From the NCBI GenBank assembly GCA_950295325.1, contig OX485806.1:33790001-33854000 (forward strand): a DNA stretch of 64,000 nt, written 5' to 3'. The notes beneath the pieces were generated by a model. That model searched no databases. It saw only the letters and a list, made by a program, of their open reading frames with translations, and was not told the origin of the DNA. Made by a program: the position numbers and the translations under genes. This document shows positions 1,791 through 48,872 of the stretch, piece after piece. Position 1 is the stretch's first letter, and every line of letters begins with the position of its first letter. The stretch comes from Polytrichum commune (taxonomy: Eukaryota > Streptophyta > Polytrichopsida > Polytrichales > Polytrichaceae).

Positions 1791-2059
1791 CCAGGTGGTC
1801 AAGCGCCTCATGTGTTTCAAAAAAGAAAGAAAGATAGTGTATACCCTTAAGGCAAGTGTAAAGGACTCCAGAGGGAACGCTAACCCTCATAGTCCTTACA
1901 ATATGAGACAAAAGCGTAAAGATCTTCACAAAAGCTAAATTTGTCTATGAATTGAACGTTTAAGGGGGGAAGGGTGGAAGCCTATCATTCTTTGTGTTTT
2001 GGATGCAAAAAATAAATTATTTGGAAGCTCCCGGTGAGCACTAGGAAAAAAATTGTCCA

Positions 2060-4735: not shown

Positions 4736-5400
4736 ATCTCAAATTAGATCTTTTATACCTCGTAAAAGTTCTTAAGGCATTAAAATCACTCAAATAATAT
4801 TTTCTTTATCTCAAATGCCTTACATTCTCATTTCATTCAAATAAGATTTTTTATATATCAAGAGAGTTCGTAGGACATTCAAATCACTCAAATAGGATTT
4901 TTTACTTACTTCAAATGCTTTACATTTTCAAATCATTCAAATTAATTTTTTTGCACCTCAAGAGAGTTCAAAAAACACTCAAATCATTCAAAAAAATATC
5001 TCTTTCACAACAAATGTCTTGTATTTTAAAATCATTCAAATAAAATTTTCTACACCTATCACTATATTCGTTAATTTGAGACTTTCTCTTGTCTCAAATT
5101 AATATATGGACCACAACAACATGGTCTAATGTTTGGGTCGTCCTACCTAAACCATCTTGATATGACTTCTTAATTGGGTTCTTGATATGAACACCCACTT
5201 CAAAGTATTTGCATCTTACAACATTCTCCAATATCTGTGTGATTTTATCCATGTTCTTATATTTGTAATTGTCTCAAAATGCCGAAAAAGTCCCAAATTA
5301 ACGAATATAGTGATAGGTCCTCAAGAGAGTTCTAAGGACACTCAAATCATTTAAATGAGATTTCTTCAAATCAAATGCGTCTTACATTCTTAAAGAATTT
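4690..5400. repeat. Degenerate tandem repeats of about 100 bp
   Basis: Units recur with the phrases CTCAAATCACTCAAAT, TTTACACCTCAAGAGAGTTC and AAATGCCTTACATTCT. The array is interrupted by a 253-bp MITE at 5,060-5,312. The array begins close to the 5' end of the copia fragment, but I cannot show that the two are connected. Confidence 0.6.
5060..5312 (+). mobile_element. 253-bp MITE with CACTA...TAGTG ends, copy 1
   Basis: The terminal inverted repeats read CACTATATTCGTTAATTTG and its near reverse complement, with about 26 bp in each arm. A second copy in opposite orientation at 23,535-23,788 differs at only a handful of positions over the whole length. CACTA ends suggest the CACTA (EnSpm) superfamily, but no clean 3-bp target duplication is visible, so the superfamily is tentative. 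No coding capacity. Confidence 0.75.
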
Positions 5401-17763: not shown

Positions 17764-19969
17764 ATGGCCACTATGAGTTCCCGCGTGCTGTATTCATGCG
17801 GCGCTGCTCTCAAGAAGTTTGTGAAGGTTCAGGGTTTTGGAACCACAACCAGAGCGCAGCTCCCCTCTGGATTCAAGTGTAGCCGCTTGACCATGTCCAC
17901 GAGGTAATTCCTGAAATTCTAGAGAGAAGCACATTCGAGTTATTCTGCAATTCAATGGGACGAAACCATTCCGTGGGGAGTTGGTCCCCCTTTAATTTTC
18001 GGTTGGTTGTTTAGCACACAATATCAATAATTTTTTGCCCACTGTGATGGGGGCATCTTCGGAGGTAGTGTTTGAATTTGAATGAAGAGCAGTTGGGAGG
18101 TTCATCGAGGGCCAAACTCATTTTAGTATCTCTTGACATGCCAAAACGAGGTGGACCTTTAATGAACCGATATAGAATGTTCTTTGTTCAAACCTGCACA
18201 CTACTTTCTCCCACCATGCACCGAAAACTTACCGAACATGGAAGGTGTTGTATTCAAATCAACCAACTCCCGACCAAAAGTCCTGTTGAGGACGATGATA
18301 ACTCTATTGTATCGCATTGCATTGTTTGTGAAGAGTGAGTGATTGGGGGGTGATGGTGGATGGTGACACATGGGCAAGGGCATGGAGCAGTGACAAGCTT
18401 ACTCATGGCTTCGCGTGCAGGCGGTCGAGAATTGAGTACATGACTTTTGCGACGAAGGCGAAAGCATGTGAGTTGATTTCACTCTGGCTTGAGTTTCTTC
18501 TGTGGTTAATCAATTGAGCTGTGTGGAGTAGTGTGGGTCTTGGCAAGTCGTCCCTTATCAGCGGAATGTCTTTTCTTGCGTAAATGCCATACTGAACTAC
18601 CGTGTTGGTATTGTTGTTGGAAGCAGCAAGTGTGAATGGAGATTCGGCGAGTGCAAGTTTGGCTGACACTACTGAGAGGTATGTTCCACTTTTTGCAACT
18701 ATCACTACTCCACATTATGTGTACTTTGGAAGAATGTGAAGAAATCATGATCGTACTTGTTTCACAATTCGGCAGGGGGAGTGCTAAGAAGACCAAGAAG
18801 CCAGAGGCTCCTAAGAAGAAGACCAAGGATGCTGACATGCCCAAGCGACCACCCTCTGCATACTTCATCTTCATGTACGATTGTCAAATTCAACCTCCTG
18901 TGCTCCATCATAGATTTATTGCTTTGGAGTACCTTCTTTGGATTACCTTCTCAATCAGTGGTGTAGTCAAAAGAGGTAGGGGTTTATGGTTTATGATTTC
19001 AAGTTTATGGATCTTATACACACTTTAATGTCGTGGAGGTTGTTGTATTCAGGGAGACTTTCCGAAAGCAGTTCAAGGAGGAGAACCCAGATGTTAAAGG
19101 CGTCACCGCGGTAATTATTCCATATTCCCCTGTTGCTTTCATGAATGTGACTAGCTGTGCAGTTTTTTTGTCTATGTCTTTGTAACCTATGAAGTTTGAA
19201 GATAGTTTTCCCACCCTTAGGTGTTGAAGTTGGATGTTATGCATGTATGTTCTGTGTCTGATTTGTACCTTGGTATGATCTTTGAGCTGAAGGTCTAGAT
19301 TTATCTGTGGACTTGGAATGTGTAGTTTATAATTGGCATTGGTTTGGAATGATGCATTTCTTCTGGCTTGTGCAGAGTGCCAAGGCTGGTGGTGAGAGGT
19401 GGCTGCAATTGACTGAAGAGGTTAGTGAGTTTACCAGACATAATCTACAAATTGGAGTGATGATAAGTTTGTAGAAACCGTACTTTGTCAGTTTGCGGCT
19501 GTTAATATTTGTGTGTGGTTTTTGTCTGTTCTTGAATGTGCAGGAAAAAGCTCCTTACATTGCAGAGGTGATTGTCAGGAAAGCTCAGTATGAGAAGGCC
19601 ATGGCAGCCTACAAGGTTCGTACCTGGTCACACTGTTACCAAGTTATGTTATGTTAGTCGTAGGAATTCATTTTCCTTACCTCCCTGGCCATGGATGCAA
19701 CTATGTTCCCTTTACAGGGTCTATTTTGAGTAGGCATGCACTATGGATAAATCTAAAGAATGGATCAGACTTACTGGGAACATTTTTAATTTTCACAATC
19801 AGATCGTTTACCATTTCTTCAGCTTGACGCTTACAGTCCAAGAAAGAGCTGGCAGCAGTTTTAAGTACTCTTGGAAGGTTCTGTATGGAAGAAATTATAG
19901 TCCTGTCAATAATGAGTTGGTTGGTGTTTGCAGAGTAGCAAAGGTTTGGAGAATGGGCTGCAAGTATAG
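17764..19969 (+). CDS. HMGB-type high mobility group box protein
   Basis: Eight exons: 17,764-17,903; 18,421-18,467; 18,627-18,678; 18,776-18,874; 19,053-19,110; 19,376-19,420; 19,544-19,615; 19,934-19,969. All have GT-AG borders and matching phases, giving 182 residues. A lysine-rich segment (SAKKTKKPEAPKKKTKDADM) precedes one HMG box running from PKRPPSAYFIFM through FRKQFKEENPDVKGVTA and GGERWLQLTEEEKAPYI to AMAAYK. HMGB proteins bend DNA in nuclear chromatin. The region before the box (about 85 residues) is long for this family and starts with a basic, weakly hydrophobic stretch. The usual acidic tail is missing: the proposed last exon adds only SSKGLENGLQV. That exon is the least certain. 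An in-frame ATG at 17,647 would add 39 residues; I prefer 17,764. Confidence 0.88.
18061..18312 (+). mobile_element. Long-TIR MITE family M, copy A (HMGB intron 1)
   Basis: Shares with copies B-E the phrases GGAGGTAGTGTTTGAATTTG, GGCCAAACTCATTTTA, AACCGATATAGAATGTTC, TGTTCAAACCT and ATGCACCGAAAACTTACC. The left inverted repeat is shorter than in other copies, so the 5' end is truncated. It lies inside intron 1 of the HMGB gene. Confidence 0.75.
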
Positions 19970-21360: not shown

Positions 21361-21561
21361 CAGCGTCCAGGGAGATTTTTGGGCATAATCAGTTGATATC
21401 ATAGTGTTTCCAAGTCCAACTGGTTACATGTTGACATCTCTTGGTTTTTCTTCAAGGGATTCAATAAATTGGGATATATTCCATAAATTCCTCTAAATTC
21501 AGTTATTTCTCAAACTCAACTGGTTCATCTGTAACTAGCAGCTGGTTCTCCCCATTCATTG
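21361..21561 (+). mobile_element. hAT-like MITE family F, copy 1 (old)
   Basis: Carries the family phrases GAGATTTTTGGGCATAATC, CTAGTGTTT, GGTTACATGTTGACAT and CTCAACTGGTTCATCTGTAAC. Flanking 8-mers GATGACAG (left) and GATTGCAG (right, 21,562-21,569) agree at six of eight positions, as expected for an eroded target duplication. No coding capacity. Confidence 0.7.
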
Positions 21562-22515: not shown

Positions 22516-25500
22516 CTAATCAAGTACATAGACCAAGTCCAAAGCATTCACAATGCAATCTTTGGGTGGGCATGTAAACACGTAAGGGACGGGTGAGCCA
22601 AGTGTGCCTTGGGCACGATATAAACCCAAAGCCAAAACACCTTCCGTTTGCAACAAGCCCATAAACAAATCAATGTAGGCCCGATTCGCGTATTGGTCGG
22701 GCACGGGCCTTTGGTGTAGAATTCGAGCATGCTTGTTCACACTCAAGGCACCCGCCTCCTCCGTGAAGCCACCATCCACAAGTTGCTCAACTATTGACAC
22801 GGTGTTGCGGTTGTAGAATGTAGACCGCCTAGTGTCCACAATAGGAATCACTTTAAAACACAAGCCTCCCATATCATTATACCGTTTATTTTTATTAGAG
22901 TGGATTATCATTTGGAGGGTCGGTTCTTTGTGTGGAACTTTTATGAGGTTTGTCTTTCTCGGAGGGATCGCGGAATGTGATTGTCGAGAATGTTTCATCG
23001 TGCTTCAGAGACACACAAGACCTCTTAAACGCATATGCTTCAGGGATCTAGGTTCTTGAAGGCACATGTGTTTACGACACCTAGTTTTTGATTGATGTTC
23101 AAATCTTGCAGAGCTTCTAACTGCAAAGGTTTAAATCATTGACCTAATCAATCCCACAATTGTCAAGTCCAAAACTTGAGCTGGAAGGATGTCACACACA
23201 ACACTAAGTTCTCTATTATCACGCATCCATGTTCACACTACAAACCTCCTTAATATCACGTGCACTTTGGTTGCCACATGCATGATATTAGAGAGGTTAG
23301 AGTGTACGTTAAACATGACCACAAATTGTAATATTTAAAAACTAAAAACACAACTCACTGGATGAAGGAGAAAAATTGTCAACAATCAACAATCAGGGGG
23401 GGAAGGGACTATGTGACTAGAGAGGGTCAAATTAGGTTTTTGATTTTGAGACCATTTCTAACTTAAACTAGATATGACTTGATTCATGTCATCTTAATGT
23501 TGTTGTGCTCATAACACAGTTGCTATTCCAAACAAACTAATATTCGTTAATTTGGGACTTTTTCGGCATTTTGAGACAGTTACAAATATAAGAACATGGA
23601 TAAATTCACACAGATATTGGAGAATGTTGTAAGATGCAAATACTTTGAAGCGGGTGTTCATATCAAGAACCCAATTAAGAACTCATATCAAGATGGTTTA
23701 GGTAGGACGACCCAAACATTAGACCATGTTGTTGTGGTCCATATATTAATTTGAGACAAGAGAAAGTCTCACATTAACGAATATAGTGATCTATTGAGTA
23801 ATATGTAAAGATCAAATAAGAGACTGTAATGCTCAAAGTGCCTGCGACATACACTTCTACCTTAAGAGTTGAACCCTTAGCTACACTAAATAGGTAGATT
23901 AGTGTTAGATGAAGATTAGTGTTAGATGCAATAATTACCTAAAACACTAATTTTCAACTGATATTACAATTAGTGTTTGAATAGGGTTTGAACAAATTAT
24001 ACCTTTTACGAGGTTCTCATATTCTTCTTCCTTCAATTCTTCATTCCAAGATTTACAAAATATCATCTAACACTAAATGCGCTCATGTAAATATTTAAAG
24101 TTACTACTTGGTACAAATAGTGTTAGAGTTGACATTTAGTGTTCTAACACTATAGAGACAATTTACATTTAGCGTTTTCGTCGACTATTAGTGTTTCCAA
24201 CACTAATCTACCTATTTAGTGTAGTGACATGAAAGACTTACAAGAGAAAGCCGAGGAGTGTCGAAGCCACGGCTCGCCCTTCCATGAACGGAGGCCCAAA
24301 GTGGACCAACCCATACCTATGATCGGGAAGGACCGGCAGTTAGTTACAGATGAACCGGTTGAGTTTGAGAAATAACTGGTTGAAGTTCAAGACTATAGGA
24401 GAATTACCGATCATTTTAGAGGAATTCATAGAATATACCCCAATTTGGTAAAGGAAAACCGAAGGATCTCATGAACATGTAACCGGTTGGACTTGCAAAC
24501 ACTAGGATCTCAACCGATTATGCCCAAAAATCTCCCCGGTCACTAACCCATACCGGTTCCTCTCGTAATCCGTCTTGTCCACTTGGTGCTTGGAAATCTC
24601 CAAGAGCGGCCGCAAGTAGTCGAAGGCGGCCGTGTGGCGCATCTCCACAAGCATGATGCCCGGCTTCTCGCCCACCAAGCGCTCCACGTTTGCGGCGATC
24701 AAAATGTTGTCGATGTCGCTTGGGTATGTGGATTTGATCTTCGTTTGGTATCTCGTGTCTTGGACTTGTTGGACCGTCAAGTCGAGGGGTGTGCTTTGGT
24801 TTGCAAGGATCACAACTTTGGCTGCACGTTTTGGTCCACGGGGAGGTCAGATAGATAGATAGAAACTCCGGTCCCTTTTTCAGCAAGGGGCCGGCGTGAA
24901 TAAAGTGTCCGTTCGTAATGTCAATGACCCGATGCCCACCGGACAAGGGGACATTGGGGCAATACCACTCTCCCCTTTCGAGGATGGGCACTATAGTGAC
25001 ACACTATACTAGTTCCTAGCTAGCCACTAGTGCCTTGAAGATGCCGGACATGGTATCCCCCCAAAGGGCTTTGAGGTACCCATACAACAAGGTCCAAGGA
25101 CCCCCCACCAGAGTTGGGTGGACTTAGGTGGTGAGCACCACGCCGGCATCGGGAATAGAACCCACAACCTCCTCATTGGGGGCCATGAGCCCTAACCACC
25201 AAGCCAAGGCCCGTGGTGCCTTTACGGGGAGGTCACTCCATTGTCAAGTTGAAAACCACGTGCGAACAAAAAAAAAAATCTACTTTTTCTAAGTTGCATC
25301 AACAAAATGGGTCAAACTTCTATCGAAAAAAATTTATGAGTACATATACATGGTATCTATTACATGGTAAAAATTGATAACCAAAATTGATAATTTGTTT
25401 TTTTCTAGAAAACATACCGTTTCTAACTAGAATGACGCAGAATTGAACTAAACAAATTACTAGAAAAAATGGAGATGACTAAGAATTTCAAGAAAATATA

Positions 25501-27395
25501 CAAAAGATGTTATCAATGGATATGTATATATAGGAAAAATATCATAATTTTTAAAATTATTTATGGCATATAATATAGGGGTAGCAAACTTTGTTCGCAC
25601 GTGGTTTTCAACTTGACAATGGAGTGACCTCCCCGTGTTTTGGTCCCATGAAGTTGATGGCAAGGGTTGTCTTATAATAGAATCTAATCCGACGTAACTT
25701 ACACTCCCACAAAATAATAAATAACATAAAAAATAAAAATATCGGTGCTTTTTACTTACACCGACATGACACACTCCCGTACAATAATAAATAATAAGTA
25801 AAATAAAAAGAACATCGGTGTTTTTTGTTTGCACCGGCGTGACTCTCTCACACACACATTAGTATGGTAGGATTTTAAGGAAGCAAGTATAAATGAAGAG
25901 CCACTTTGCCAACATGCTATTAAGGCTAGGACCTTTTAGTGAAGGCGTTCACTATTGGATGTTCAAGATAAGATTTAGGTGGAATTGGGTGCAAGTTTAG
26001 TATGGAATTAAACCTTGCATAATGTGTATGCGTTGATTTGCTCATAGAAGTGGTTGAGATAAAGCTGAAACATAATTTCATAGAAAAATGTCTAATAATT
26101 CCCAATACATAGGATACGTATCTACCAAAGAAGAAATAAATAGCATATTAACTAGTAACTTAAAAGGATGTGAAAAGGATATAGTTATGATGGTATATTT
26201 GTGTTGTATGTAACTTAAACTAAAGTGAAGTTGTATTTGTAGATGTGCCTAGTTTCACTCAACTATAACATGACATACTAGCAGTAGGGTGTTGCATCGT
26301 GGGGCTGGGAATTTTGTGAGAATGTAACCCTTTTTAAAAAAAAATTTGGGCCACTCTTACAAAATGAACTATTTTCAACTTGTGTATTGTTCGCTCTGCA
26401 AGAGTGAACTAGCATTTGGTGTCGGCAACATGATTTTGAAATACCTACTTTTTTCTTGGAATAAATCATAAAACTTGTATGCTTGTTGGGGCCCTATCAA
26501 GATGGTGGCATCAGTTGGCCGGGTTAGCATCAACACTGAACATGGACGGGCTAGGATTCTTTGCATGATTGTTGAGTTCATGTTGAGGTTACAATCTTGG
26601 CCCATGCCTATGCCTCCCCCTTTGGAAAGGGTGCGGAGGGGGTAGACTTAGGATGTTATGAAGTTGCTCAAATCACTTGATATGATTATTAGTGCAAATA
26701 GTATAAATAATCTTAGTCAAAATTTTGTAATTATACCTGCCATAAGAATACCACCTCGCATGAGATCAAGTTCATAAATAGGAGAGCCCTTTATGAACCA
26801 AACGTCCTCAAAGATGCCCACGAGACCCCATTGCTCCTCATTTGGTACACACGGGTGGAGAATGACGATTGGCAAAGAAGGAGCTAATGGATCACGCAAG
26901 CCTCGAATGAAGTAGAAGAGATGGCGAGGCCACTCGCCTTGTGAGCATATCAATATGTGTCGTTCCTTTAACTCTACGATCGACAATATCCTCTTCCTCA
27001 AATCCTCCCTAATCATGTCTGCATGCCAATCTAATATGGCAGGATGGGGTGGTCGGCGCTTCAACAAAGGTGGCCACATGAGAAGTGCTTCTGTTGCCTT
27101 TTGAAGCGATTGCTTCATTGGGTGACGCAAGTTGTCACTCCCACTTGGTAAATGTATACTGCGAGGAGAACCTGTAATGTTGTGTTACTTACACATTCCC
27201 AATCATTATAAATGCAATCTTATGTTTGACATTCAAACCAATGCCATCAAATACTAGACCTATCTCATTCTCAATAAACAAAACTGGACAAATGACAACA
27301 ATTTGTCCTCTCCACATAAGCCATTAAACTCACCATCATTTTATTCCTTAATACAAGTCCACTTATCAAGTCATCCTATATGGCCACAAGCAAAT

Positions 27396-27436
<41 letters not shown>

Positions 27437-30400
27437 TGAATTCAAATGGTGCAAGGTGGAGATGAACCTTGACCACTCAAGCTATTGGATTGGTAGTACC
27501 CACTTATACAAGTTTTATTGGTGGATCCCCCCCCCCATACAATTATTACAAGTTAATCTCTTCCCCCCATTTTTTTCTCTTTCAAAATATACAACCAAAT
27601 TTTGAGTAAATCCGAACTTATGCATGAATTTTGACATAACAAAATTGTATACGTGCATTTCTATGAATAGTGGCCCATTATGATAGAATGGTAGATTTTT
27701 GTCTTAGATGTACATTGCACCTACTGTTGTAGACACATTTTGGTTTCTTACACATTGTGTTAATTGTAAAAAATGTGTGAGTAACACAAATCTAGAGTGA
27801 CTGTTGAACCATGTTGTTTCTCAAAACATGTATACTTAAAGATACTCCAATATGCATGATTTGGACATAATTTTTTTTTGTCAGTGTATACTTAAATCTT
27901 GGTTATTTGTTTTTGACTGAATTTTTATGGGTAGCAATTGCACACCGATACTACCTGGGCTCACGTCAACATAAACCCCATAGTGTTTGTTCAACCACCC
28001 TGGAAACGCCTCCAAATCAACTGACCCGTGGCGACTCTTAAGCATGTTCGCCTCCTCATTTGCCACCAAGTTCCTGTTGATTGTCGATCGGAGTTGGGTC
28101 TCGAGGTTGAACCCCATCTTCGTGCTCGTTGTATCTTCACGTGTCTCATCGTCATCTTGTATTGTGGGATCAAGAACAATCGAATCCCGGTTCGTATTTA
28201 GGGTTGTCACGGTGCCGGTGCGCTTCCACCGGTTGATCACACTCTCCACCTCCGTGCTCACTTGGTAATGGGAGTATTGGGCTTTCAAAGCCTTGCCTCT
28301 TAAAAAGGACGAGCAAAGTTGTGAAGTAGCATTCTTGTTTCCATACTTGGATATGGCAAATGCAACATGGATGTCCCTTGAGATCACTAGCCCAATATCG
28401 TCGGGATGGATAATATGACCTTTTGGGTGAAGCAACACCTATAAAATAGCATGACAACATTTCCACATGCACCACATCAACCAAAAACCCTTCCTAATTG
28501 CTTAATATTCACCCATGTATATAATCGCTTACTCATCGTTTACATCCTTGACTTGATGCATTTATCCTTAAGTTTACATCATGTGTGTAGTTCATCCTAA
28601 TCTTCTTATTCATTCACTACCCCAATTAGTCAACCACGTCTAACTTCTAGAGGCTCTAGCCTTTTTCTTTGTTTCATCATAACAACATAACATGCATTTT
28701 TTTCACTTGCTATAAAATGAAGGATGCAGAGTATAAAATTAGAGTTTTGTGAAGTTGAGTTGTTGATATTAGAATCATAATTATGGCCATAGGGTTGGTG
28801 TTAAGGTATATAACTTGGTGAACTCCATATACGTGTTTCAAGTATGAATTTGACTTTATTTGTTACGAACACAAATCCACACAGCTTTGGGTTGAAATCT
28901 TTTATGTGTGATGGACACATATCGTATTAGGATGTGTCAAAGATATGAGAGTCAAACTATTCATGAATGATATGGAAAAATGGAATAAAAAAACAATACT
29001 ATATCAAAGCATTTATATGGCAAACATGAAGTTGAGAAACATATAAAAATCAAGTTGCATACAAACTCGATTCAATGTGATTTTATTTTTTTATGTATAT
29101 ATATATATATACATTCAATCAATTTTGGGAGAACATAACGTCCAAGCATTCTTCAATTGCATGAATGCCTTTCATACCCTATATATATTGCAAATAGATT
29201 TTTCAACACATTTGGGAGAAGGATGACTGCTTGTGAATTTTTTATTGTTCCCATTTCTACTTAGAAGTGGTTGTATATGCCATCTATCTCCTCACACAAA
29301 TTTGAACCAAATTAACTGCATTTCTGTTCCCATCCACCCTCACCCTAGGGGGTGGAGTCTTCATACAACGTACGAACTAATGTGAGTGTAAGAAGGGGTG
29401 CTATTTGAGGCATTAGTGTACACAATGTGTTAGTTTAATCAAATTCAGGTTTTTATCCATTGTTGTCATAGGGTAATAGTCCTTAATGACTACCTTGTTC
29501 ATTATTGTTAGCAAATGTTGCATTTGGGTTTTAGGTTTCATAAACTAGAGGCTCTTGGAGCGCTCATGAGCTCCCTTGAGTTTCGCTCTTTAATTTGTGG
29601 CTACGTTATTATGCTTTTGTCTTTGTTTGTTTGATGCAATCGTTGAGTTACATGCTACGGATGAAAAAAACTCTCAATGACTTTCTCATTGGGAAGTGAA
29701 AGTGGATTCTATAAGCAATAAAACCCCATTAAATTCATGATTATTATTTTGTACATGCAGTGAAGGTAATTTTCAAATGAATTTGAAACATCTCAATATA
29801 AATTGATGAGCCCATTTTCTAGCATGATGTTAGTATGTATATATCTTTTTTCTTTTTCTTCGTAAACTTCCTGTATACATGGAGTTTAAATTCATAGTGA
29901 CCCATGCATGTCATAAGATATCCAATGAAGAGTCCACCCCCCAAGACCCTCACAAAAAGAAATCTCATTTAAATCCCCCAAAAAACTATAACTCTAGAGC
30001 TTCTAAATATTAACCAATTCTTTATTTCATAACAAACAATGAGTCAAAATTATGAAATGCAACTAGTAAGAGTATTTTAAGTCAATAAAACTTGATTCAT
30101 GTTGACTTGCGTGTGTTGACGTCACTAACCTTGTTGACCATGCGGTTCTTCTTTTTGTGCAAAATCGAGACGTCCAAAGCAAACAACACTGTGTTGTAGT
30201 TTGCATAAATGAACCCTGCAACCTGATATTTGAAATCATATAAAGAAAATTTTGAAGATCTAATATGTGAATATATATATATATATTCGTGTTAATTAAT
30301 CTAACAAATATCAACAACAATTGGACTACCTAGTTGATGACGCTTGTATCAGAGTAATTATTCTCAAAATCTAGACTTTTTGGTTGTTTCAATTCTATGG

Positions 30401-30794
30401 GCAGACATGTTCACACACTCTCGGTATACCTAAATCTTCTAGAAGACATGTCTCGTTCATCTTCAGTGTATTGTACACTGGAATGTTAAGATACCAAACA
30501 TAGTTGAAAATTCACAAATATCTATCTTTTGATGTTAAATCATGATACTAAACGATAAGTAATGAAATTCAATTGAAACAACCACTGTAATTATTATCAT
30601 AATTAGTTCTTCATATTTTATTGTAGAATACTATCATACAATCATTCTATTGGAAGATCTTATGATAGAATTCAACATGTTGTAATCCTAAACTTAAACC
30701 TATTCCAGTTTTACTTAATTATTAGTTCACACGTAAATTTGAACATTGTGAAAATACTTCTTTAGGGGAAAGACCGATTAGGTTTAGTGGATGG

Positions 30795-30828
<34 letters not shown>

Positions 30829-33800
30829 GGTTTCACCTCTTCAAACAATTCATTGTGGAAGTATGTTGGAAATATCACGGGATAGACTTCATTGACGTAG
30901 CTTTGGTAATAGTCCGACAAAAAGTGATCGTCCGAGATATTCACGAGCTTAATATCCGAAGTGAACAAATTGCTTATGAATGGGTAAAGGCCTTTGATGA
31001 AGCAACTGCTCCAAGGAGGACCATTCATATCATTCAATGCCCCGCCGTCGTGCTTCAATCATTCATGTGCATGTAAGTTCGATGGTTTAATTGTGACAAA
31101 ATTAACCCCTAAATGGCTAATTAAATTATGGTAACTACACTTACGATTGGGAGAGAGAGAATTCTTGTATACGAGCGTACATTTCATCCATCCAACATTA
31201 AACCTAGATCTCTTATAGGTTTGTTGCCAGTTCATCTTTAATGATCTTGAGTAAACTAATCCTAGGTCTGTAAAACTAATTTCGGTGTCAAGTTAACCAA
31301 ACGAAGCAATCTTCCGAGTTGCATACTATTTTAGGGATTTTATGTTGGATGAATGATAAGTACTCTCTCTCTCTCTCTCTCTCTAAACTTTGTTTTTACC
31401 ATGCCTTAGATAAATTACACAAAAGGTAAAATATAACCCCAAAGGACTAATTACTTTAGGGTTAGGTAAGTTATACCTAACAAATATCCACCCTAGATCC
31501 GATACTATGCACCTATGGACAAGGGTAGTTACCTAATCAAATATAAAGTGAAAGGAAACAAGGGAACATCCTTTCAAAGGCTAAGCTGCATGAGCAATTT
31601 ACCCTTGGTAACTTCTGGGATTAGAGTAAAAGTGTGCAGAAGTGTGGAAGGCGAGGCTAAGTACCTCATTCTTCGATCACACAAAATGGTTAAAGAACAT
31701 GTAGAATACTCAAGGATAGTTTGAGTATGTACTGATACAAAATGTATGATTTTGCCTTGTATGATTGTGTGACATAGATAACAATTGGGTTCTATTGTTA
31801 TTCACCTCGTGTACGTTACTAAACCTCTACTTAGATTTGATTAGTGGAGTGGGCACAGGTGAGGGAGACCCTTCACAACCTTGATGGCATCACTAGGTTT
31901 TGTATTTTCATCTTATTACAAAAGTAATGTGTGGACAATGTTTAGGTATTATGTAATGATAAAGAATGCATAGCATGGGATGATATGAGAGGAAACCTTT
32001 GGAGTATATGTTAGACTTAGTCTTTATACCTTCTTTTGAAATTTGACTATGAAAGCCTTGGATATGAAATATCAACATCTAGTAAAACCTTCTAAAGACA
32101 TGTGAATGCTCAAAGGTTGTTTTCTTTAACTTATTAGACAATACTCCAAGATGAAATACTGTAGCTCTCTAGCAGCTTGGGCAAAAAATAATTAATTTTA
32201 AAGGTGCCTAAATTTATGGGAAATTAATTCATTGAGTGTCCAAAAAAAAAAGAATTACCATTCAAAGAGTGCCTAAAATCATAATAATGCAAGTGACATA
32301 GTCTCTCACAAAGACCACTCCGTATAACTCTCACACAAAGCAAAACCCTGACATACAAGTAAAAGACAAACTTCAGGGTAAGGAATGTTGGTTAAGGGAA
32401 CTGTTTAGGTTAATCATAGCCGCCATAGATGAAATTAGGAAAACCAATCATGATTTATAAGAATGACTTGGATGAATCTCTAACTTATCGAGAAGAAGTC
32501 TATGGACGATGAAAGCAGCTTCTGGCTTCTGGTGAGGCCACGTTGCCTGTGCTTTCTCGACCGTCGGGTTTGACCGATGTAACCCTCCTCCTCGGGGGGG
32601 GGGGGGGGGCACTGGCGAAAAACGTAGGAACTACGTGCGATAAAATATAGGGTCTTGTATAAAAATTTGGCGTAAAATTTGTAAAATTATTAGATGTAGT
32701 ATAGGGTGCTCTGGGATTGTGAAACATGATTATATGTAATATAGCATTTGACAAAACATGATTAAATTACCTAAGTGGTACATATAAAATAGCATGGAGA
32801 AAAAGCGATAGTTTCAAAAATTAAATACTTTGCCACCAAAATATAAAACCGGCCCCACTTTAGACCTTTCGGAAATTGCATAAATGAAAAAAAAAATGCC
32901 GGCTAATTGCCTAAATACATTAGGAAATGGGGGCTATCAACCGATAAATTTTGCACTCTCTAGGCCCACTCTTGGGTAAAAATTGAAAAATCCGAGCTAC
33001 CTCCAGAAAGCTCGGCAATTAGCCGTTTCCTCTACAGAACTCCCCGGACTTTGCTCCCGCCCTCTCTCGCCCCCGCCTCCGTCAACCCTAGTTGGCAGAC
33101 CTCAACTTGGTGCAAGAGTGGCACTCTGCTTCTCCGAGGCCCTGGAACAATTGGAGGATTCGGCTTCCAAACAATCGAAAACAATCAAGCAATCACCACC
33201 CGAAGCCTGGACATATAAGTAATATAGGGTACCATAAAATCAACCATCCAAGAATTTATAATTACCAATAGGGTGCAAATAATCACAACAATTTACCATT
33301 ATTTCAAAAATTAGCATCCCTTATAATCCTTTCTCATAGGTAAATAGCCCCCATTTTAATAGGTCATTATCGCAGGTGTATGCAAAATATACAAGGGAGT
33401 GCCCCCCCCGAGCCCTCCTCCCTTGATCTCCTCCGTCCACAGCTTCACCCTTAAGGCTCCAAGAGGCCCATTTAATAGAATTTCATTTCACAACACCTAC
33501 CAAGGGGGAACTTAGCAAAAGCTTGCCCCTATAGATTTGTTGCTAATTTATCTCACTTAAGACTCACTAAACTAATTTTGGTTTTAGTTTTTTAATATGC
33601 TCCGTTTTAGAATATTATATTTTGGGTTGCCTAACTTACTTTCACACTATAATTAATTATTAGGCAGAAAAGTGCCCAAGCTGCTAGAGAGCTACAGTAG
33701 TTGCAAGGATGTGATGATAGATATGCATTGATGTAGCCTTGAGGGATGGTCCCACCCACCCTCCCGAGTTTTGCAAAGGAACATGGATATGTAGAAGAAT

Positions 33801-36164
33801 GGTTTGGCCTCTAACTAAGAGGATGTATTCTGAAAGGTTTGTGCTTGAAAATAAGCCTAGATTTATTTGATTTAGTTATGGTTACTGGAAGTGCATATTT
33901 GTTGATTTCTTCATTGGTCCTCCCAATTGTGTTCACTATTGAGTGTAGAGTAGTTATTAATAACATGAGTTTTGTTGTGTAAATCTGATAGGTAGAAGTT
34001 GGAGAACATGAAAAAGAAACCAAATAAGACCCATGTTTCTTATTTCAAGTGAGTAGGTTACATCATAGGATTTTGTACCACCCATATTATGACATCTAGT
34101 AGAAATCTATCTCTTATAGGTTTATGGTTGATTTATCCAAATTGAATCTCACTACAAGACTATTGAGAGACTAATTTAAAGTCCTTGGTGCTAATTCAAG
34201 GGGTCAAATTTTCTCTTTAAAAAATAAAATGTGAACTAGGGTTGGACTATAAAGGGTTTTAACGTTAGCATCTTCAACTTACTTGAGTGGCACGAATCCT
34301 TGGTGAGTGTTATACCAACCGGGTACACCCCTATTGATACCTATGTTGAACCTAGATATGTGCTCAGTATTGATTGGTTTGATTTGGGCAAACAAAGAAA
34401 AGAAAACCAATGTTGGGCAATCCGAAGTGGAATTTGAGCTCGTTCGCCCTACCTTGCTCATGAGTCCCCTTGGTGCAGAGAATTTGGACAAAAGTTAGTG
34501 CATTGGGTGCAATGAATTCTAAGCCCATATACATGACCAAGAGTGAAACTATCACTCTTGATAGAATCTATGTGCAAATTAAGTCTACTTGATCATATTT
34601 GTTTGATATAATCAAAGTATATCTTGCTCTTGAGTAGGTGCACTTGCTTGTTGTGAGGTTTGTATTTTTCTAATGTTTCTAAGATATTGAAATTTCATAA
34701 CATTACTTAGTCTCTCACTTCTGTTCTCTTTCTAAAAGGGTAGTGGAAAGTGAGAGGTTGTCAATGTTCACACATTCATGGGTAATATTCTTAGCATGTT
34801 GGTTTCAAGGATTGGGGTGACCTGGAAAAGTAGGTTTCGGCTATCACATGGGCCCGAGTGCAAGTGGATTCCAAGCATGCACAATATTGTTTAGTGAATT
34901 TAAAATAAAATACATGTATATTTACTAGCAAGTCTAAGTTTGGGGTTGGCTATATTTTGGTTTAGGGTCATGTTGGGAACAATATCCAGGCTGAGTATTG
35001 TTCATTATGTCTAGAAAATTCCTGCTCTCATGGTGCAACGGTCTACAACTAAGTATTGTTATGGTTAAATAACTTTTTTTTTGGATACACATGAAAAACA
35101 TGTTAATCACAATTAAGAAGAGAAACCACTTCGCATGCCAAAAGCAATAATCCCATAATCTACCTTTGCATGCCAAAAGCTCCCAATTCTATTAGTGACC
35201 CCTATTTCAACACCTACCTTTCTCTCAAAGTGGGCAACTACATATTTCAACATGAATAGTTATTGTATTGTTTAAGAACTAAAAACGCAACTCATTGGTT
35301 GAGGGGGACAAAATGCCAATGATTAACATTGTCCACTTTGTCGGGAACTATGTAACTCGGAATAGTCAAATAAGATTCGTGACCTTCGACATTTCTATAG
35401 AATATAATTATGTTTTGATTCATGTGGTCCCAATGTCATTGTGCTCATAATATAATTGCTAAATTAATTAAAACATTTGATAATTTGTATGGGTCAGAGA
35501 AGGGACCGTAGTGCTCAAAGCATCTTTGCAATAGGTCTTTCTACCTTAGCCTAAGGCAAAGACTCCAACCCAACCAACCATAACTACCAAAATACCAACC
35601 AATGAACCCAAGGTTCTTCCCTTGTATCTCCACTTAATCATCATAAACTCCATGCTAAATAATAATAATAATAATAATAATAAATCCCCAACCTTGGTCA
35701 AAGATTAAAGGCCTTCAGGTATGAAGTAGATGTGCCTAAGTTGGTCACTTGTGGTTAGGTGTGGCTCCAAAGAACAGATACCAAAAAGACATGAAATTGG
35801 ACTACCAATAACCATTCCAGGCTCGATACTCAAAATCGAGTTGAGGGGACCTATATGACCATACTAGGTATACTCACGAGACTATTCACTACTTCGATAA
35901 TGAATAGGATATTTGTACAAGCTCCAAAAATGACAAGGAACGTGACCATGGCCTCAACTTAGATTTTCTAACCATCTCGTACCAATTGCATGCTTCATAT
36001 CCTAGGGGAAGTGGACTAGTCGAAGAAAAAGTAACCATTTAAGACCCTTCTACCTCCCTTTCTAACTACGTTCTCACAAGCAAGTATTGAAGGTCATCAA
36101 AACAATATTTCCTTTATTGAAAGAACGGCATTTGAGCACAAAAGAACATCAAAAACATTAAAAT

Positions 36165-36197
<33 letters not shown>

Positions 36198-39100
36198 CAA
36201 GTCTTTTTACCTTCGCGCAAGCAATTTGTAGTGGATTTTCAAGGGACATATGATCTCGATGCCCCCGGATTGGGTCTCATCCCACACCGCGCTCGTTTGG
36301 GTGGTTGGCTCCAACACTTCGACGATGATGCGCACGCGGTTCCCACACACCCGATGCACCGCGAGGGCTCTCACGACTTGCACCGCATCCTCCGCCTTTG
36401 GGTCCTATCATTTGTATCTACAAGAAAACACTCGTTTCAAAGAAGAAGAACTTCTTCAACTAGTGCTTATAGATGTTTTTTATAACCTCAACATGGTGCA
36501 ACCATGATCATAAGGTCCAACAATAAACTAAGGGGGTTGTTAAATAGACCACACACTAGTTGAAACGACCACAAACATGCGTCATGCGACAGTTCACACA
36601 GCCTGTCAAAAATTCGAACAAATATAATAGTTGTAAGCTAAAATGTAAAGAAAGAGGAAGCGAAGGTGATACCTGGCTCCTCTTCACGTGTATGGTGAGA
36701 GGTGGTCAAATTTTAATAGGTCATGTTATTGCACGACGCATCTCTGTGATTGCTTTAACAAACTACGTGATCAATTTAACAATCCCCTAAAATCAAAACT
36801 AAAATTGATTGGTTCGCACTTGTGTAGAGAGAGAAATAAAACCCTCTTTATCTTTGCATTGAAAAATGTGTTTATTTTTTTATTTTTTTTTATGTCATAT
36901 GCATGAGTGGTGTTGGGATTAGCACAAACATTGGTGTCTTTATTGGCAAGTAGGAAAATGGCCGATGCCTTAGACGCACAAATTCGTTCAAGGTCATCTT
37001 GGTACACGGGTGAGCCCTCGATGAACTCCACGAGCCCCTTGTACAAGGTCAGTAGTTTCTTCAGCTCAAATCTACAAAAATAAAAATAAAAATGTATAGG
37101 TCATTTGGTCAAGTTCCTCATAAAATTCTTGGTCAAAACTAGGTCTATATGTAGCATTCACTCGTGCAAACACTTGGAACTCGTGAATTGGAAATCTAGT
37201 GAACTTGAGCACAATTTGTTGGACTTTTGCCATTTATCTTGAATCGCAAGTGACCAACATTCATGTTGAGCCGATATTAGATACATATCTTTCAAGGATT
37301 AATACACGGAAAAGGAGGGGGGACTCCCAAGCTAAATTTTAAGAGGTCATGTGCAAGAATGGGGGTGTTTTCATTGGGGTTATAAGGTAATGAGCATATT
37401 CATGGGATATTACCAAAATAATATTATCAAATTGACAAACTGAAGTTTTGAGATCTTGGTTTTTTTTAATTATTTTAAAATTCTTATTTTGAGACCTTTT
37501 TTTTTATTGCATCACATTTTCTAGTGGAATGCAGGTTAACCCCCCTTGGTTTGATATCTTATCCTTGCAAACTCAACATTCAGCATATGAATTATTTGAC
37601 ATAAATTCAACCTTTTAGGTCTTGCAATTATAATATATAGGATCAAAAGAGTAAAATTGCATCCGTATGCTTGCCAAGAACGTAAGTATGTATGATTGTT
37701 GTGATCGTATATGATGGAATTGGTGTGAAATCAACATAAAATCAACTTTTGATATATGAATATAAAGGATTGTGATGTACACAAGTTTGATTGACATACG
37801 AGGGTTGAAACGGTGCCATAATGTTGACACGTAAGGGGTATGCAAAGCTATCTGCACATGTATATTCAAACATTCCAATGATACTCAAATTTATAACATA
37901 CTAACAACATGTATCACCGTGACAATATGAAGATAGTGTTGCCAATGCCTAGAGCCCCTTACAATACAAAACATATGAGAGCTGGGCAATTGTGTTGGGT
38001 CATTGGAAAGTCTGTAAATCTACCATAGTGGTAGATTTGCATGCTTCGTTCACTGACACAAGATGCTTAGGCCCATATGTTGGTAGTGTTACCACCACTG
38101 TTTTAGAAGCCTCCAACACATGATAATACTAACAAAACTCAACTTAAAATCACCTTCAAGTCCCATTATGGAATTGCACATATGACAACTATGTCATTGA
38201 CAATTATGACATTGTTGTTATTTATTTTAATAACATTATTTTGATGTGTCGATACATATACTATATGAAAGCAACAAACATCTAGTCTAAAGGCCTAGGA
38301 GGGTAAGTCCCTTATAGAGATATGAACCATGTGCAATAAAAGGGTATTTTCAAGGGGCTATAGAGTAATGTGCACATTTTATGAATATGACTATTATTCT
38401 TTACACACAATTGATATATAAGGAAAATTCTGGACCCTATATCAACATTAATGTTAGAAAACTTCCTCTTCTGAATTTCATTCCACCCTATTTTATTTAA
38501 TCTTATCTGTACATGTGTAATGTTTAATATCTTACAAAGAGTGACCTCCCTAGATCCAAAAGTCATCAAAAAGACCAGACTTGTATATCTTTTTTTTTAG
38601 CACAAATTGAAAATTCAATTGCAAGAGTGGAACCAAAAATTCAACCACCTCAGGAGAACCAACGCAAACCAAGGGGAACTCTGGACAAGTATACCTTCAC
38701 AATGTGTGGGACTATAAAACTCTGCAAGACATTGTTGAATAGCCTGATATGTGATACTTCCACTCAATATAATATATCTTGAGTCGATTATTTTCCTTGA
38801 TGAAAATGAGCCTCCGTAAGGTCTGCTTCATCTCAATCATAATTTCATCGTTTATAACCATGAACAACATCACAATGATCAAGTCAACATTATAAGGATC
38901 GAATCGACTTTCAAGTATAATTAGGTTTTTTGGGTTGGTTTGTTGGATAGTCGGATTAAATGATACTACAAGTTTTTTGTTTTTTGCATACTTGATTGTT
39001 TGTCTTCTTTTGATTTATAGGCGAAGAATTAGGTTATATGTATAGAAATTCAATATGAAGTATGGTTGACGTCATTGTTACAAACAAAAGCCCACGCACC

Positions 39101-42100
39101 GCAAGGTAGGCAATAAACCCCACCCTGCACCAAGGGGATTCTTGAGCAGGGTAGGGCTGAAGGCTTAAATTCATGTCGGATTGTCCGATGTTGGTTCTTC
39201 TTCTTCTTCTTACAAACAAGAATATCTATCATGGCAACTAAGTTTACAAGAAATCACATGTACAAACTCGGTCGCTTGCTTTTTGGGATGTCTCTTTGTC
39301 CACAAGAACAAACTATGCACGGATTTATTTTCCATACTTGACATTGTTACCATGGACGATATTTGGACATCTAGAAAGTCCGGTTTTAATTGGAATTTTG
39401 TTACAACTAATCTTTGGTCACTCGATCATGTCAAAGTCTAGTAACATGGTATTGTAGAGGGCTCTTTATTTGATCTCTATATGTGATGGAATGCAATTTC
39501 CGCGTGGGATACAAGTGGGTCTTAGTGAATCTGAGCATGACATGTGGCAAAAGAAAAACTATTGAGGGGAAAGTGTATTTTTGTGTTGGAATACAGAGCC
39601 CTCTACAATATATTGTCCAAGTTTACAGACATGAAAGTGATCAGTATAGGCTCTTCAACTAGGAATGAACATTTTGTCTGATCTATCCACCTACTAACCG
39701 CTAAATATAATTTCTTGTTTGGCGCCGTACTAGCCAAAAGAAATAGAGTGTGTAATACAACTGTCCTTCAATTCATCTAGAGTTTTGGTCAGGAGTCGAT
39801 TGTTTTGCGTACAAAAAATTGCATGTATGTTAAGTTACTGGTGCATGTTTGGAGTCGGTGTGGAGGTTTGAGCAAAGAACATTCTATATCGGTTCATTGG
39901 GAGCCAAACTCATTTTACCATGCGCTAAAATGAATTTGGCTCCCAATGAACCGATATAGAATGTTCTTTGTTCAAACCTCCACACCGACTCCAAACATGC
40001 ATATAAAACTTATCAAAGATGCAAAATTTTGCATGTAAAATAATGAACTCCCAACCAAAACTTCAATTGAATCAAAGGATAACTCTAATATCTGCAAGAA
40101 TGTGCATACAATTAGGATTCTAATAAACATGAACAAAAGATTTGTCCACTCACAAGAAGAGATACGGTTCACATGGAAAACTACACCAAATATTGTGTTT
40201 GGGATCATATTATATTATATGTCATTTTGGTAACTTCTCTAATCACACTTCTTACGAATAGGTATACACAAGTACTGGCATCCCAACTTACTTCAAGTTC
40301 ATCCAAATGCCAATTATGGAAACAAAGTTTGCTATGTCAACATGCTAACGTTTTTGTGATGAAGTATTATCATGGATGATTGAAATTCAAATGAAAATTC
40401 TCATCGTAAGTGACAATAATTGCAACATTGTAAATTCATGATGCCCAATTTTTCTCACAAGGAAAGCCAAATAATGTCAAGCTAACATTCGATGTTGGTG
40501 ACACTACACGCTCGGTTTACAATTAGCATTGAGCAAGACGAACATATGATTTGTGATGCTAAATACAATATTTAGTGTACTTTCCGGCAAACCTATGATA
40601 AGAGCTTGCAACTGGTATTACATATACACAATCTCCTTATGACCAAATTTCATGCAATAACAATAATAATAATAATATACAACGTCGGACAATCCGATGT
40701 GAATTTGAGCCTGTTGGCCCTACCATGCTCAAGGATCCCCCTTGGTGCAGGGTGGGGTTCACTACCTATCTTGTGGTGGGTGGGCTCTTCGTCTTTCCGT
40801 CAAGTAGAGAGAAGATTTCACAGCCAGCAATTGAACCGCCAACCCTTCTGTTTAGATTTGGGTACCTCTCCATTGTCATCTGGTAGTTTAGGGTCATCTT
40901 GGGCCTCCAAATTTCATGCATATGTTTAGATTTACTTAACACCCAGTCAAAATTAAAAATTTCACAAATTTAATTTACCTCCGAGAGGCAATATTGTTGA
41001 TGCGGCTCACTTGCACGGGAATGTAAATGAGTGCACCAATGATTATCACAATGCCCAAAATTTTCCCCCAATTCGTTTTTGGTGTAATGTCTCCATACCC
41101 TGTTGTGGTAACCTACCAAAACCTCATGGTGGGTGTTCGCATCCAACAATGAAAGTGTGGTTTCCAAGATATTGTACATAGAAAGTCGAAAGAAAGAAAG
41201 AAACTCCTTTGGTAACATTGGAGTTGTCAAGAGGGAAAACATGCATGAAACGCATAAGTATTTGCTTCCGAATCATAATGGAAGGAATTTTTGAAAAATT
41301 TGAAAAATTTGTAGCCATGTAGAAGTATTGCGAGAGAAATTGTTACATACAAGTGTACCTCTCATTCATCCAACAAAAACAACTTGAAATATTATGTATG
41401 TAGCTCATAAATTAATTTTCTTAGTTGAAATGACATGACAACAACTTTCAAAGACATTGAATAAGATAGTCTAATGAAGCACATTTTAGCTTAATTGATT
41501 TTGAACCTACAAGAGAGCATGTTCTTGATATGGATGGATGAAAAAGGTACATTCGTTGGCAAAAAATCCTTCTCACCCAAATATACTTAGTATAGGAATT
41601 GCAGTTCCTTACCATTGGTGTTTTTTTTGTATGTTTTGTTTTGTTTTTTTGTTTTTTTTTCTCCCACTGGATGGTTTTATGGTTTGCTAGAATAGTAAAC
41701 TTCCTATCCATATTTGTAGATTTCAAACCCGTCTAAGGAAAGAGAAATAGTGGTAAGGGACTACGAGTCCCATAGTGAATGAGTATGGAAAGTTTACCAA
41801 TATAAGGAAATGTTTTTCTACTTGTGAGAGACTTACAGTGACAACAATATAATAGATCGAGTCCAAAAAATTTATGCAACCACCGAGAGGACACTGTGCT
41901 TTGGCGTCACTTGAAGCACCTTCATATTCAACCCATTGCATGACACCCGCGCTTATAAAAACTGCAACCAACCATGAAGGAATTTAGGCTCAAAACATAA
42001 AACTAGTCAAGTGTTGGTTTAATCCACACCAACTTTAATGAGGAAGTTTAGCTTTGAAGCTTCTCTACGAACAACCGAATTCAACTTCATCAATCTCCAA

Positions 42101-45100
42101 ATGTTTGGTGCCATCAATCAATCAATCACTATAAGGATAGAGAAGTCCTAGGTAATCGTCCTACGTTATTGAAAACTTGTCCTACGTCATTGGAAAAATC
42201 AACAATTCTATCACACGGTGAGGAATGGTATTGTTTCTTTTGACCAACGTAAGCAGATTGTCTAGGACTCATATGCTGGTAGTAAGATGGATAGCAGAGC
42301 AATCTCGATTACAATGCTCGTAATCTTAGTATTAGGTACATTGGAAAACATAGATTTTACAAATCTTCACCAGCCCCTAATGTTGTGAGCGTCACTAGGA
42401 CAATCTTTTGTAGTAAAGTGCTTCCCACGAGCCCAAGATTTTCAAGCACCGACAAAATCCTGCAACTCATCACTCCCACATGAACAAGCACAACTTCCAA
42501 CTAGGCGTTTACGAGTTCAAATTTTTTAAGCACATTTTCAATGGCATTAACAACAATGTCCTAGGTTTAAACCCTAATCACAATCATATATAGATTTTTT
42601 AGGTTATAAGGTGGACGCATGGCATTACTAAGCATTATGGGAACATTCTCTTTCTATATTCAACAATGGACACATTTAATATCACCAATTGGGACATGTA
42701 GACTTGTAGGGAATGGCTGGGAGCCTCAAGATTCAAAGTTTGAATTTGGGGCGAGAGGATCTACACTAAATATCCTAGTTAGTGTTTGCGGTACTAATTC
42801 CCAAAACATGCACTATTTTGCCAATTCTCAAAATTAGCGAGGGCTGAAAGTTTTACAGAGTGATACTAAATTCATGAATACATGCTCACTCATCATACGT
42901 TTCAAGAAAAGTAGTGTGTGCTCTAAGGTGCTTGAAGAGCGATTAAAAAAATAAATCATATGCAAACACATGCTTGCCAATGAATAGTGTAAGGATGAGT
43001 AGTGAACAATGCTACTATGAATAGTATTTCACTAAATAGTGTCAACATGAACAATGCTTCCTAGATTTTTTGATGACACTAGTTTCATAGCGTAAAAGAA
43101 ATTCAGTATCACCTTCACTGATTTCCCACACGCACTATTAACCCTCCCCTACTAATCGGGATCATCAATGTAGCATGAATCCCATCATGTCCCCGGCTCC
43201 ACAACCCTTGCCTCACCCCCTTGCAAGGCTTGTTAAATAATGTTATGCATACATCATGGCTTCAAACCCCGCGGTGGGGGGGGGGGTTGGGGGTTAAAAG
43301 TTTCTAATTGGAAGCTCACATATATGAGCTTAATGCCAAGACCATTAGGAATATGAGAATTAAACTTGTTGTTTTTGGAGTAACAAGTAACAACTTGTAA
43401 GCTTACCGCACTATGCGAAGAAATTGGAGAAGGTGGAGTACATTTTCACCCGGTAACCCACTCCTACACAATAGCAAGGTCCCCGGTAAATCAATGCAAT
43501 CCACACTCATGTAGAATCACTTGGATCATTATATTTGGTAATCAAAGATTTTTTTCATGATTTTGAGATTATTTAAGGACGTGGTTTTCAAATAAAGAAC
43601 AAGAACAACACAAAAATATATTGAATATGACTTAATTTAGATGAAATAAAGCGATTTGCATGGGCGGCACTAACCAATTTGGCACACATACATGTCATCA
43701 CAATAAGAATTGAACCATATATTAAGCTATTTGCATTTATTTTGAGACTTTTCAAAGTCTTCATTCAACGAATATAATGATTGGATGAGTGTGACAATTA
43801 AATCAAAGTAGTCGAGTTTATAGTGCATGTGGTTTATGAGTTTGAACCTGAATACAAAAATGATGGGAATGGCGCTTAGCAAGTCAATCACACCCCAAGT
43901 TGAAAATATGTACAATAGCCGCACCGGCTCACTAACATTCAACAACAATAAACATTTGTTGGAACTTGAATAGGAACCAAACTTGCAACGCTACATTATA
44001 TACAAGAAAACATAGTTTAGATGAGTGCTCATGTTGGCACTATGGTGTGTGGCTTGAAGGGTTGTGAGATTTTCATATGATAAAAAATAAAATCAATGAA
44101 TCAATTTAATATTTCTTAAATTCGGTTCATCCATGATTAACATCACCAGTAGAAAACTATGTCAAAAAGAACTGCAACCGAAACGACTGAAATATTACAC
44201 GACAGTATATTGCACGCCCCGAAATTTTTAAGATTGCCGTCGCAAAACAAAAAAGGAAAATTAATAGTCGTTTAACGACTGCAAATCAAGTTGGTCAAAA
44301 AAACTACAACCAATTTCAGCTGTGGTTTTTTTGGACATAGTTTTCTACTAGTGCATTACCTAGCCTATGAAACATGTTTATTCTTTCTAAGTCCATGATA
44401 ATCTTCTTATCATGGACCAATTTTGCACATCTTCTTATCAGCAAAATTATCATGGACTTAGAAAGAAACTGAACCAATTTTGCGCATCTTGCACTTTTAT
44501 TTTAACATCCAAGTGCAACCAACTAAGATCACTCCCGGGGAAAGAACATAAGCTCTCCCCATTTAACGGTATCATGTTTGTAATCGACATGGAAAGTGTA
44601 CAAGATTTGCGATTGTCACATGTTTGCAATCGACATGGAAAATGTATAAGATTTGCAATTGTCACATGTTTGCAATCGACATGAAAAGTGTATAAGATTT
44701 GCGATTGTCACATGTTTGCAATCGACATGGAAAGTGTATAAGATTTGCGATTGTCAAATGTTTGCAATCGACATGGAAAGTGTACATGATTTGCGATTGT
44801 CACATGTTTGCAATCGACATGGAAAGTTTATAAGATTTGCGATTGTCACATGTTTGCAATCGACATGGAAAGTGTATAAGATTTGCGATTGTCACAAGTT
44901 TGCAATCGACATGGAAAGTGTACAAGATTTGCGATTGTCACATGTTTGCAATTGACATGGAAAGTGTATAAGATTTGCGATTGTCACCAGTATACTCGCA
45001 ATAAGTAGTCCGCCACGAAGACGCAACTTGCGATGTTTTGGGTTTGTGTCACCCATTGATACTCATCGTCTTGTCTATCTTTCAAATGGTACCTACACAA

Positions 45101-48646: not shown

Positions 48647-48872
48647 CAGTGATCGGGGAGATTTTTGGGCATAATCAGTTGAGATCCTAGTGTTTGCAAG
48701 TTCAACCGGTTACATGTTGACATTCTTCGGCTTTCCTTTATTAAATTGGGGTATATTCTATAAATTCCTCTAAAATGATCGGTAATTTTCCTGCAGTCTT
48801 GAACTTCAACCAGTTATTTCTCAATCTCAACCAGTTCATCTGTAACTAACTGCTGGTTCTCCTCGATCATAG
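48647..48872 (+). mobile_element. hAT-like MITE family F, copy 3
   Basis: Starts CAGTGATCGGGGAGATTTTT and ends CTCGATCATAG. Flanking 8-mers GTGCAACC (48,639-48,646) and GTGCAACT (48,873-48,880) agree at seven of eight positions. It carries the same CTAAC plus pyrimidine plus CATAG end as copy 2. It is intergenic here. Confidence 0.8.

Follow-up and report, generated by a model that had tools for sequence, protein, structure and literature searches.

A hAT-like MITE and its duplicated target as a predicted new intron of a Slo/BK-type channel gene in the moss Polytrichum commune

Transposon-born introns are a kind already known, from maize and rice. Maize introns made by Ds were reportedly described by Giroux et al. 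in 1994: a non-autonomous hAT element lies in an exon, is flanked by an 8-bp duplication and is spliced out as an intron. Ds1 in Adh1-Fm335, said to have been described by Dennis et al. in 1988, is reportedly of the same type, a mutant allele with transcript proof. For rice, Iwamoto et al. are said to have described a MITE-derived intron of a catalase gene in 1998. The locus analysed here lies in a 64,000-nucleotide stretch of the Polytrichum commune assembly GCA_950295325.1 (contig OX485806.1, positions 33,790,001 to 33,854,000; hereafter the window). It resembles the maize Ds introns in that a non-autonomous element of the hAT superfamily lies in an exon, with an 8-bp duplication and with removal as an intron, which is predicted here. 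The Ds cases are mutant alleles with transcript proof, whereas the present insertion belongs to a reference assembly and to another plant lineage, and its predicted splicing would be silent at the protein level. Like the rice catalase intron, it would be a single new plant-gene intron derived from a mobile element; both the element and the host are different. Papers on maize Ds and on rice catalase are named in the reference lists of PMC3443670 and PMC3260210, and the accessible text of PMC3443670 puts transposon insertion forward as a way in which introns are gained, exemplified by Oryza, Drosophila, Oikopleura, and Zea.

In the introners of Symbiodinium, the element supplies the 3' splice site and a 4-bp duplication the 5' splice site (Gozashti et al. 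2022, PMC9860276, accessible part). The same part of that paper gives introner families as retained at at least four introns each, and reports no introners from land plants. The present MITE is likewise a non-autonomous DNA element with a duplication and terminal inverted repeats (TIRs), and the same arrangement of splice sites is predicted for it, but its duplication measures 8 bp, and its family has one predicted intron among the copies examined. Two marks of introners are present at the locus: the duplication (TSD) and TIR of a DNA transposon lie flush with the ends of the predicted intron, and an intron is missing at the homologous position in all five paralogous sites found in the genome. 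Titles and beginnings of abstracts, mostly from non-subscription literature, mention no moss intron that arose from a MITE.

Very probably, the MITE together with its duplicated target became a new intron of a Slo/BK-type gene, with splicing predicted at the edges listed in Table 1. A non-autonomous hAT-like DNA transposon would have inserted in sense orientation into one ancestral channel exon, duplicating its 8-bp target. The spliceosome would then use the GT of the upstream TSD and the AG at the end of the element, removing 237 nt. The ancestral mRNA would be left unchanged, because the second TSD copy restores the target bases. A built-in acceptor and branch point and a target preference for GT may have predisposed the family to such an event. 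We therefore describe the case as a putative single de novo transposon-born intron, from a family that was exceptionally well equipped for it.

Table 1. Coordinates of the predicted intron, its parts, the host gene and the MITE copies in the window
Feature	Position	Strand	Remark
Predicted spliceosomal intron	24317..24553	-	237 nt, GTATGG...CATAG; gene-upstream duplication plus entire element
TSD copy, gene-upstream, 8 bp, GTATGGGT	24546..24553	-	Predicted source of 5' splice site
hAT-like MITE, 229 bp, TAGTGACCGGGG...CCCGATCATAG	24317..24545	-	
TSD copy, gene-downstream, GTATGGGT	24309..24316	-	Opening bases of next exon
Branch-point-like CTAAC	24339..24343	-	Second A 23 nt upstream of intron end; interval free of AG
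Predicted 3' splice site AG	24317..24318	-	Last two bases of the MITE itself
Exon portion upstream of new intron	24554..24821	-	
Exon portion downstream of new intron	24242..24316	-	
Slo/BK-type channel gene, modelled part	22516..43949	-	15 ancestral exons; stop codon 22516-22518; upstream N-terminal exons outside model
MITE copy, 226 bp, ends CATAG, TSD GTGCAACC/GTGCAACT	48647..48872	+	
MITE copy, shortened, 201 bp, ends CATTG, flanks GATGACAG/GATTGCAG	21361..21561	+	

The preliminary description had placed a 229-bp minus-strand element between identical 8-mers, with the element ending in CATAG and with CTAAC upstream of that end. Coordinates, both copies of GTATGGGT and both motifs were confirmed when the window was re-read. 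The TSD is perfect over its 8 bp, and the edges of the predicted intron coincide with the start of the TSD and the end of the element. Without splicing, the channel frame meets a stop codon within the element. The proposal that the join would be silent at the protein level also held: the joined frame reads NRYGLVHFGPP and is free of stops at the join.

The host gene was modelled with exon ends set by hand from conserved blocks and neighbouring GT/AG. The model comprises 952 codons, free of stops after removal of 15 introns, among them the new one. The preliminary description had numbered the new intron 17; this was not reproduced, as in the modelled part, counted from 43949 downwards with the N-terminal exons outside, it ranks 14th among 15 introns. 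Short pieces of the protein gave no identification: a 90-aa piece around the site, an approximate query with inexact first residues, matched no Pfam family, and phmmer found no match of a 97-aa piece among solved structures. The identity of the gene was settled by the joined 952-aa translation, which contains the K+ pore sequence TTTGYGD and matched the Pfam families Slo-like_RCK (9.5e-34, in two stretches), BK_channel_a (1.1e-14), and Ion_trans_2 (above cut-off), with Slowpoke_C slightly under its cut-off. The top match among solved structures was the BK channel alpha-1 subunit (1.8e-44), with a second weak stretch of 18.4 bits that crosses the joined intron site. As predicted from its K+ pore and Slo-type RCK domains, the host gene is a Slo/BK-type potassium channel. 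The accessible part of PMC11617655 lists BK channels in charophytes, liverworts, mosses, lycophytes, and a spruce, but none in flowering plants. A light-harvesting gene of the same genome matched solved structures of chlorophyll a-b binding proteins, with E-values as low as 1.5e-160, several of the top entries being from the moss Physcomitrium; both observations fit a moss.

A genome search with the joined 97-aa stretch listed seven matches, two of which are pieces of the window gene itself; the remaining five lie elsewhere. The two closest paralogues, L012 (62/97 identical) and L013 (58/97), read through the site without interruption, their identity there ranging from 60% to 64%. Three remoter paralogous sites (31-34% identity) were spanned by matches too short for any insert; one of these matches contains an internal stop codon. 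Since no interruption occurs at any of the genome's five paralogous sites, the predicted intron is a gain, at what the comparison indicates was formerly a single-exon site. The preliminary description had proposed a test for absence of the intron in orthologues of related species; an in-genome form of that test, on the paralogues, came out in its favour, and its central claim, a protein-silent intron made of a hAT-like MITE plus TSD, is supported. Each of the window gene's other 14 introns has a counterpart flanked by matching conserved blocks in the C2 paralogue; 12 introns were comparable in the C1 paralogue, whose first two blocks were not found in the fetched stretch. The intron between 27955 and 27171 was placed by blocks, its exact position being beyond comparison in a poorly conserved linker. 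As the positions of the other introns are shared, the new intron is the sole unshared position in the compared part. The ratio dN/dS against the C2 paralogue was uninformative due to saturated synonymous sites.

The family of the element was characterised from its copies in the window and in the genome. Two further full-length copies had been claimed for the window; the one at 48,647 was confirmed (TSD matching at 7/8), including its ready-made acceptor end, but the one at 21,361 is shortened and, because of its CATTG end, has no acceptor. The genome search with the element, over 408 Mb in 64 contigs (the seven viewed measure 42 to 78 Mb), scored 40 of 4,707 first-look candidates and, among the matches listed, gave, besides the copy itself, 39 relatives at 90-97% identity and one match of 47 bases; a megablast search of the element against plasmids gave no match. 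The two most frequent forms of the 3' end occurred 1,323 times genome-wide as exact 16-base matches, 632 with CATAG and 691 with CATTG. Copies that combine an exact 5' end with a GT-first TSD number 88 in total, of which 43 ended in CATTG, 27 in CATAG, and 18 otherwise. The TSD was exact over 8 bp in 55 of these and had one mismatch in 20, and the commonest copy length was 226 bp (43/88).

The consensus alignment comprised 84 rows, after removal of copies with more than two TSD mismatches or a length outside 195-240; three of nine other loci from the genome search are missing from it, and at least two copies are present twice. The consensus starts with CAGTGATCGGGGAG and, in the AG-ended rows, closes with TGTAACTAACTGCCGGTTCTCCCCGATCATAG, which contains a branch-point-like sequence and an acceptor. 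TIR pairing is 12/14 for the family and 9/14 for the intron copy. Judged by its 8-bp TSD, short CAGTG-like TIRs and small size, the element is a hAT-like MITE; ends of the CAGTG type are a mark of hAT elements. The hAT dimerisation domain is abundant in the genome (150 scored matches out of 1,060 candidates).

GT directly follows the 3' end in 148/632 AG-ended and 122/691 CATTG-ended copies (18-23%), compared to 5.7% expected from the frequency of the dinucleotide in the window, and AC closes the next eight bases (TSD positions 7-8) in 118/632 AG-ended copies (19%). We read this as a target preference near GTnnnnAC. The share of GT was higher after AG-ended than after CATTG-ended copies (Fisher p 0.0095), and GT after AG-ended copies also exceeded the mirrored AC-ending class (p 0.045). 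The excess of GT on AG-ended copies leans toward an introner reading.

It is quite unlikely, in our estimate, that the element simply broke the gene, leaving a young pseudogene in which the GT and AG at its edges are coincidental and unused. Such an outcome would fit with the 148 AG-ended copies followed by GT, which mean that GT...AG at copy edges is not rare in this MITE family. Every other modelled exon is open, however, and the edge sites score as typical of the gene. Position weights for splice sites were trained on the gene's 14 other introns, a small and not independent model whose training boundaries had been hand-placed at GT...AG. The GT of the TSD scored 7.2 as a donor (leave-one-out range of the other introns, 2.4 to 8.6) and the terminal AG of the element 4.2 as an acceptor (-3.8 to 11.3), and each was the highest-scoring site of its kind within the 237 nt.

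The age of the insertion bears on the same alternative. The closest sister copy, L002, is 97% identical to the intron copy, which carries six private changes at most over its 229 bp, some of them possibly older variants. The description of the insertion as young is accordingly fair, but as a dating it is soft. Decay was simulated with the 6/229 private changes as the age, scoring a gene as intact if it had gained no stop and lost no splice dinucleotide, with indels ignored. A gene free to decay stayed intact in 2.0% of simulations at the 6/229 age. Halving the age raised this share to 15%, and the lower and upper 95% bounds of the age gave 25% and 0.03%, respectively. Neutral survival without damage at 2-25%, depending on age, leaves some room for a broken gene; on balance the simulations favour a working gene over a decaying one, although the argument is modest.

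Coding potential on either side of the copies was assessed by a codon score trained on three channel genes, with the pass mark set at the 20th percentile of known exon sites (2.6). The joined channel site scored 7.8 forward, above the 80th percentile of known exon sites (7.5) and the 99th percentile of non-coding sites (7.1). It also scored high in reverse (5.7), so the score is not very strand-specific. Among the 88 GT-first copies, one passed forward and two in reverse, against 7.8 expected from non-coding sites. This suggests that exonic copies were mostly purged and that the channel copy was kept, which again speaks against a knock-out. Joined frames of 200 nt or more from those of the 88 copies with at most two TSD mismatches were inspected by eye and rejected as not coding-like.

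Returning to the MITE-born intron, the preliminary description had called the family introner-like and had suggested that it could have seeded introns elsewhere, which our data do not support. A true introner family, with many introns made in the genome, is very unlikely. It would be consistent with both GT excesses given above and with a consensus that carries an acceptor and a branch-point-like sequence. If copies form introns, donor-like TSDs are expected, but GTRNG TSDs after CATAG numbered 15 genome-wide, the window copy counted, against 23 mirrored. Forward coding passes were no more frequent than reverse ones: there were 0/27 among the AG-ended GT-first copies, 0/14 among other donor-like copies and 6/60 in an additional set of AG-ended copies that GT follows, where reverse passes also stood at 6/60. 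The three sets, minus overlaps, amount to 99 distinct AG-ended GT copies, a sample confined to exact ends and covering somewhat under two thirds of the AG-ended GT copies that have them. The 60 are the first of 81 new places among the matches listed, which covered 100 of the 148, 19 having already been fetched. An upstream TSD with at most one mismatch was found in 26/27, 8/14, and 33/60 copies, respectively, and the joins are uncertain for the remaining copies of the 14- and 60-copy sets for this reason.

No convincing second exonic copy emerged from the 99 by this weak and partial coding test, which is blind to introns in untranslated or non-coding transcripts. The least unlikely candidates are L138 (C2:8612909-8613527) and L176 (C3:32925888-32926506), both AG-ended, followed by GT and with open joined frames on either side, as an introner family would have them. 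For four frames taken from the highest-scoring of the additional copies, these two included, no Pfam match reached the gathering score; this null result is weak, as the true channel piece alone is likewise without a match.

A nascent introner is improbable too, if somewhat less so than a full introner family. On such a reading, a land-plant MITE whose own sequence already includes a branch point and AG would have a transposase favouring GT-first targets, so that about a quarter of AG-ended insertions would be GT...AG units, and the GT excess would reflect transcribed and spliced copies, in coding, untranslated or non-coding sequence, unseen by the coding test. It is exceedingly improbable that the site had an older intron which the element entered or replaced: mobile elements commonly insert in introns, but the boundaries here are exactly those of TSD and element end, with zero older intron sequence left, and none of the five paralogous sites has an intron.

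As a single gain, the predicted intron would be a clean natural case of intron birth, in which a single genome contains the element, its duplicated target, its sister copies and paralogues that lack the intron. It suggests that an ordinary plant MITE may be half-way to an intron maker, by virtue of its acceptor, branch point, and GT preference, without evident conversion to an introner family. The case bears on the reported absence of introners in land plants.

Several other repeats and genes were observed. A pair of 251-bp repeats (5058-5308 and 23540-23790) is 98% complementary; the second copy sits within the last intron of the channel gene, and the pair is possibly another recent small mobile element. 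The inverted pair at 39753-40090, with 165-nt arms 8 nt apart and 81% complementary, is related to stretches near 50605-50921, 53490-53575, and 18137-18231, which together form a foldback-like repeat family. A tandem array with a 46-bp period (44482-45079) lies upstream of where the channel gene model begins. Retrotransposon remains with RVT_2 and Pol_BBD, presumably Copia-type, are found on the minus strand at 2041-4101. Elsewhere in the genome, fourteen equal-scoring matches to chlorophyll a/b-binding genes occur in both orientations within about 95 kb (G000:C5:1751760-1846160).
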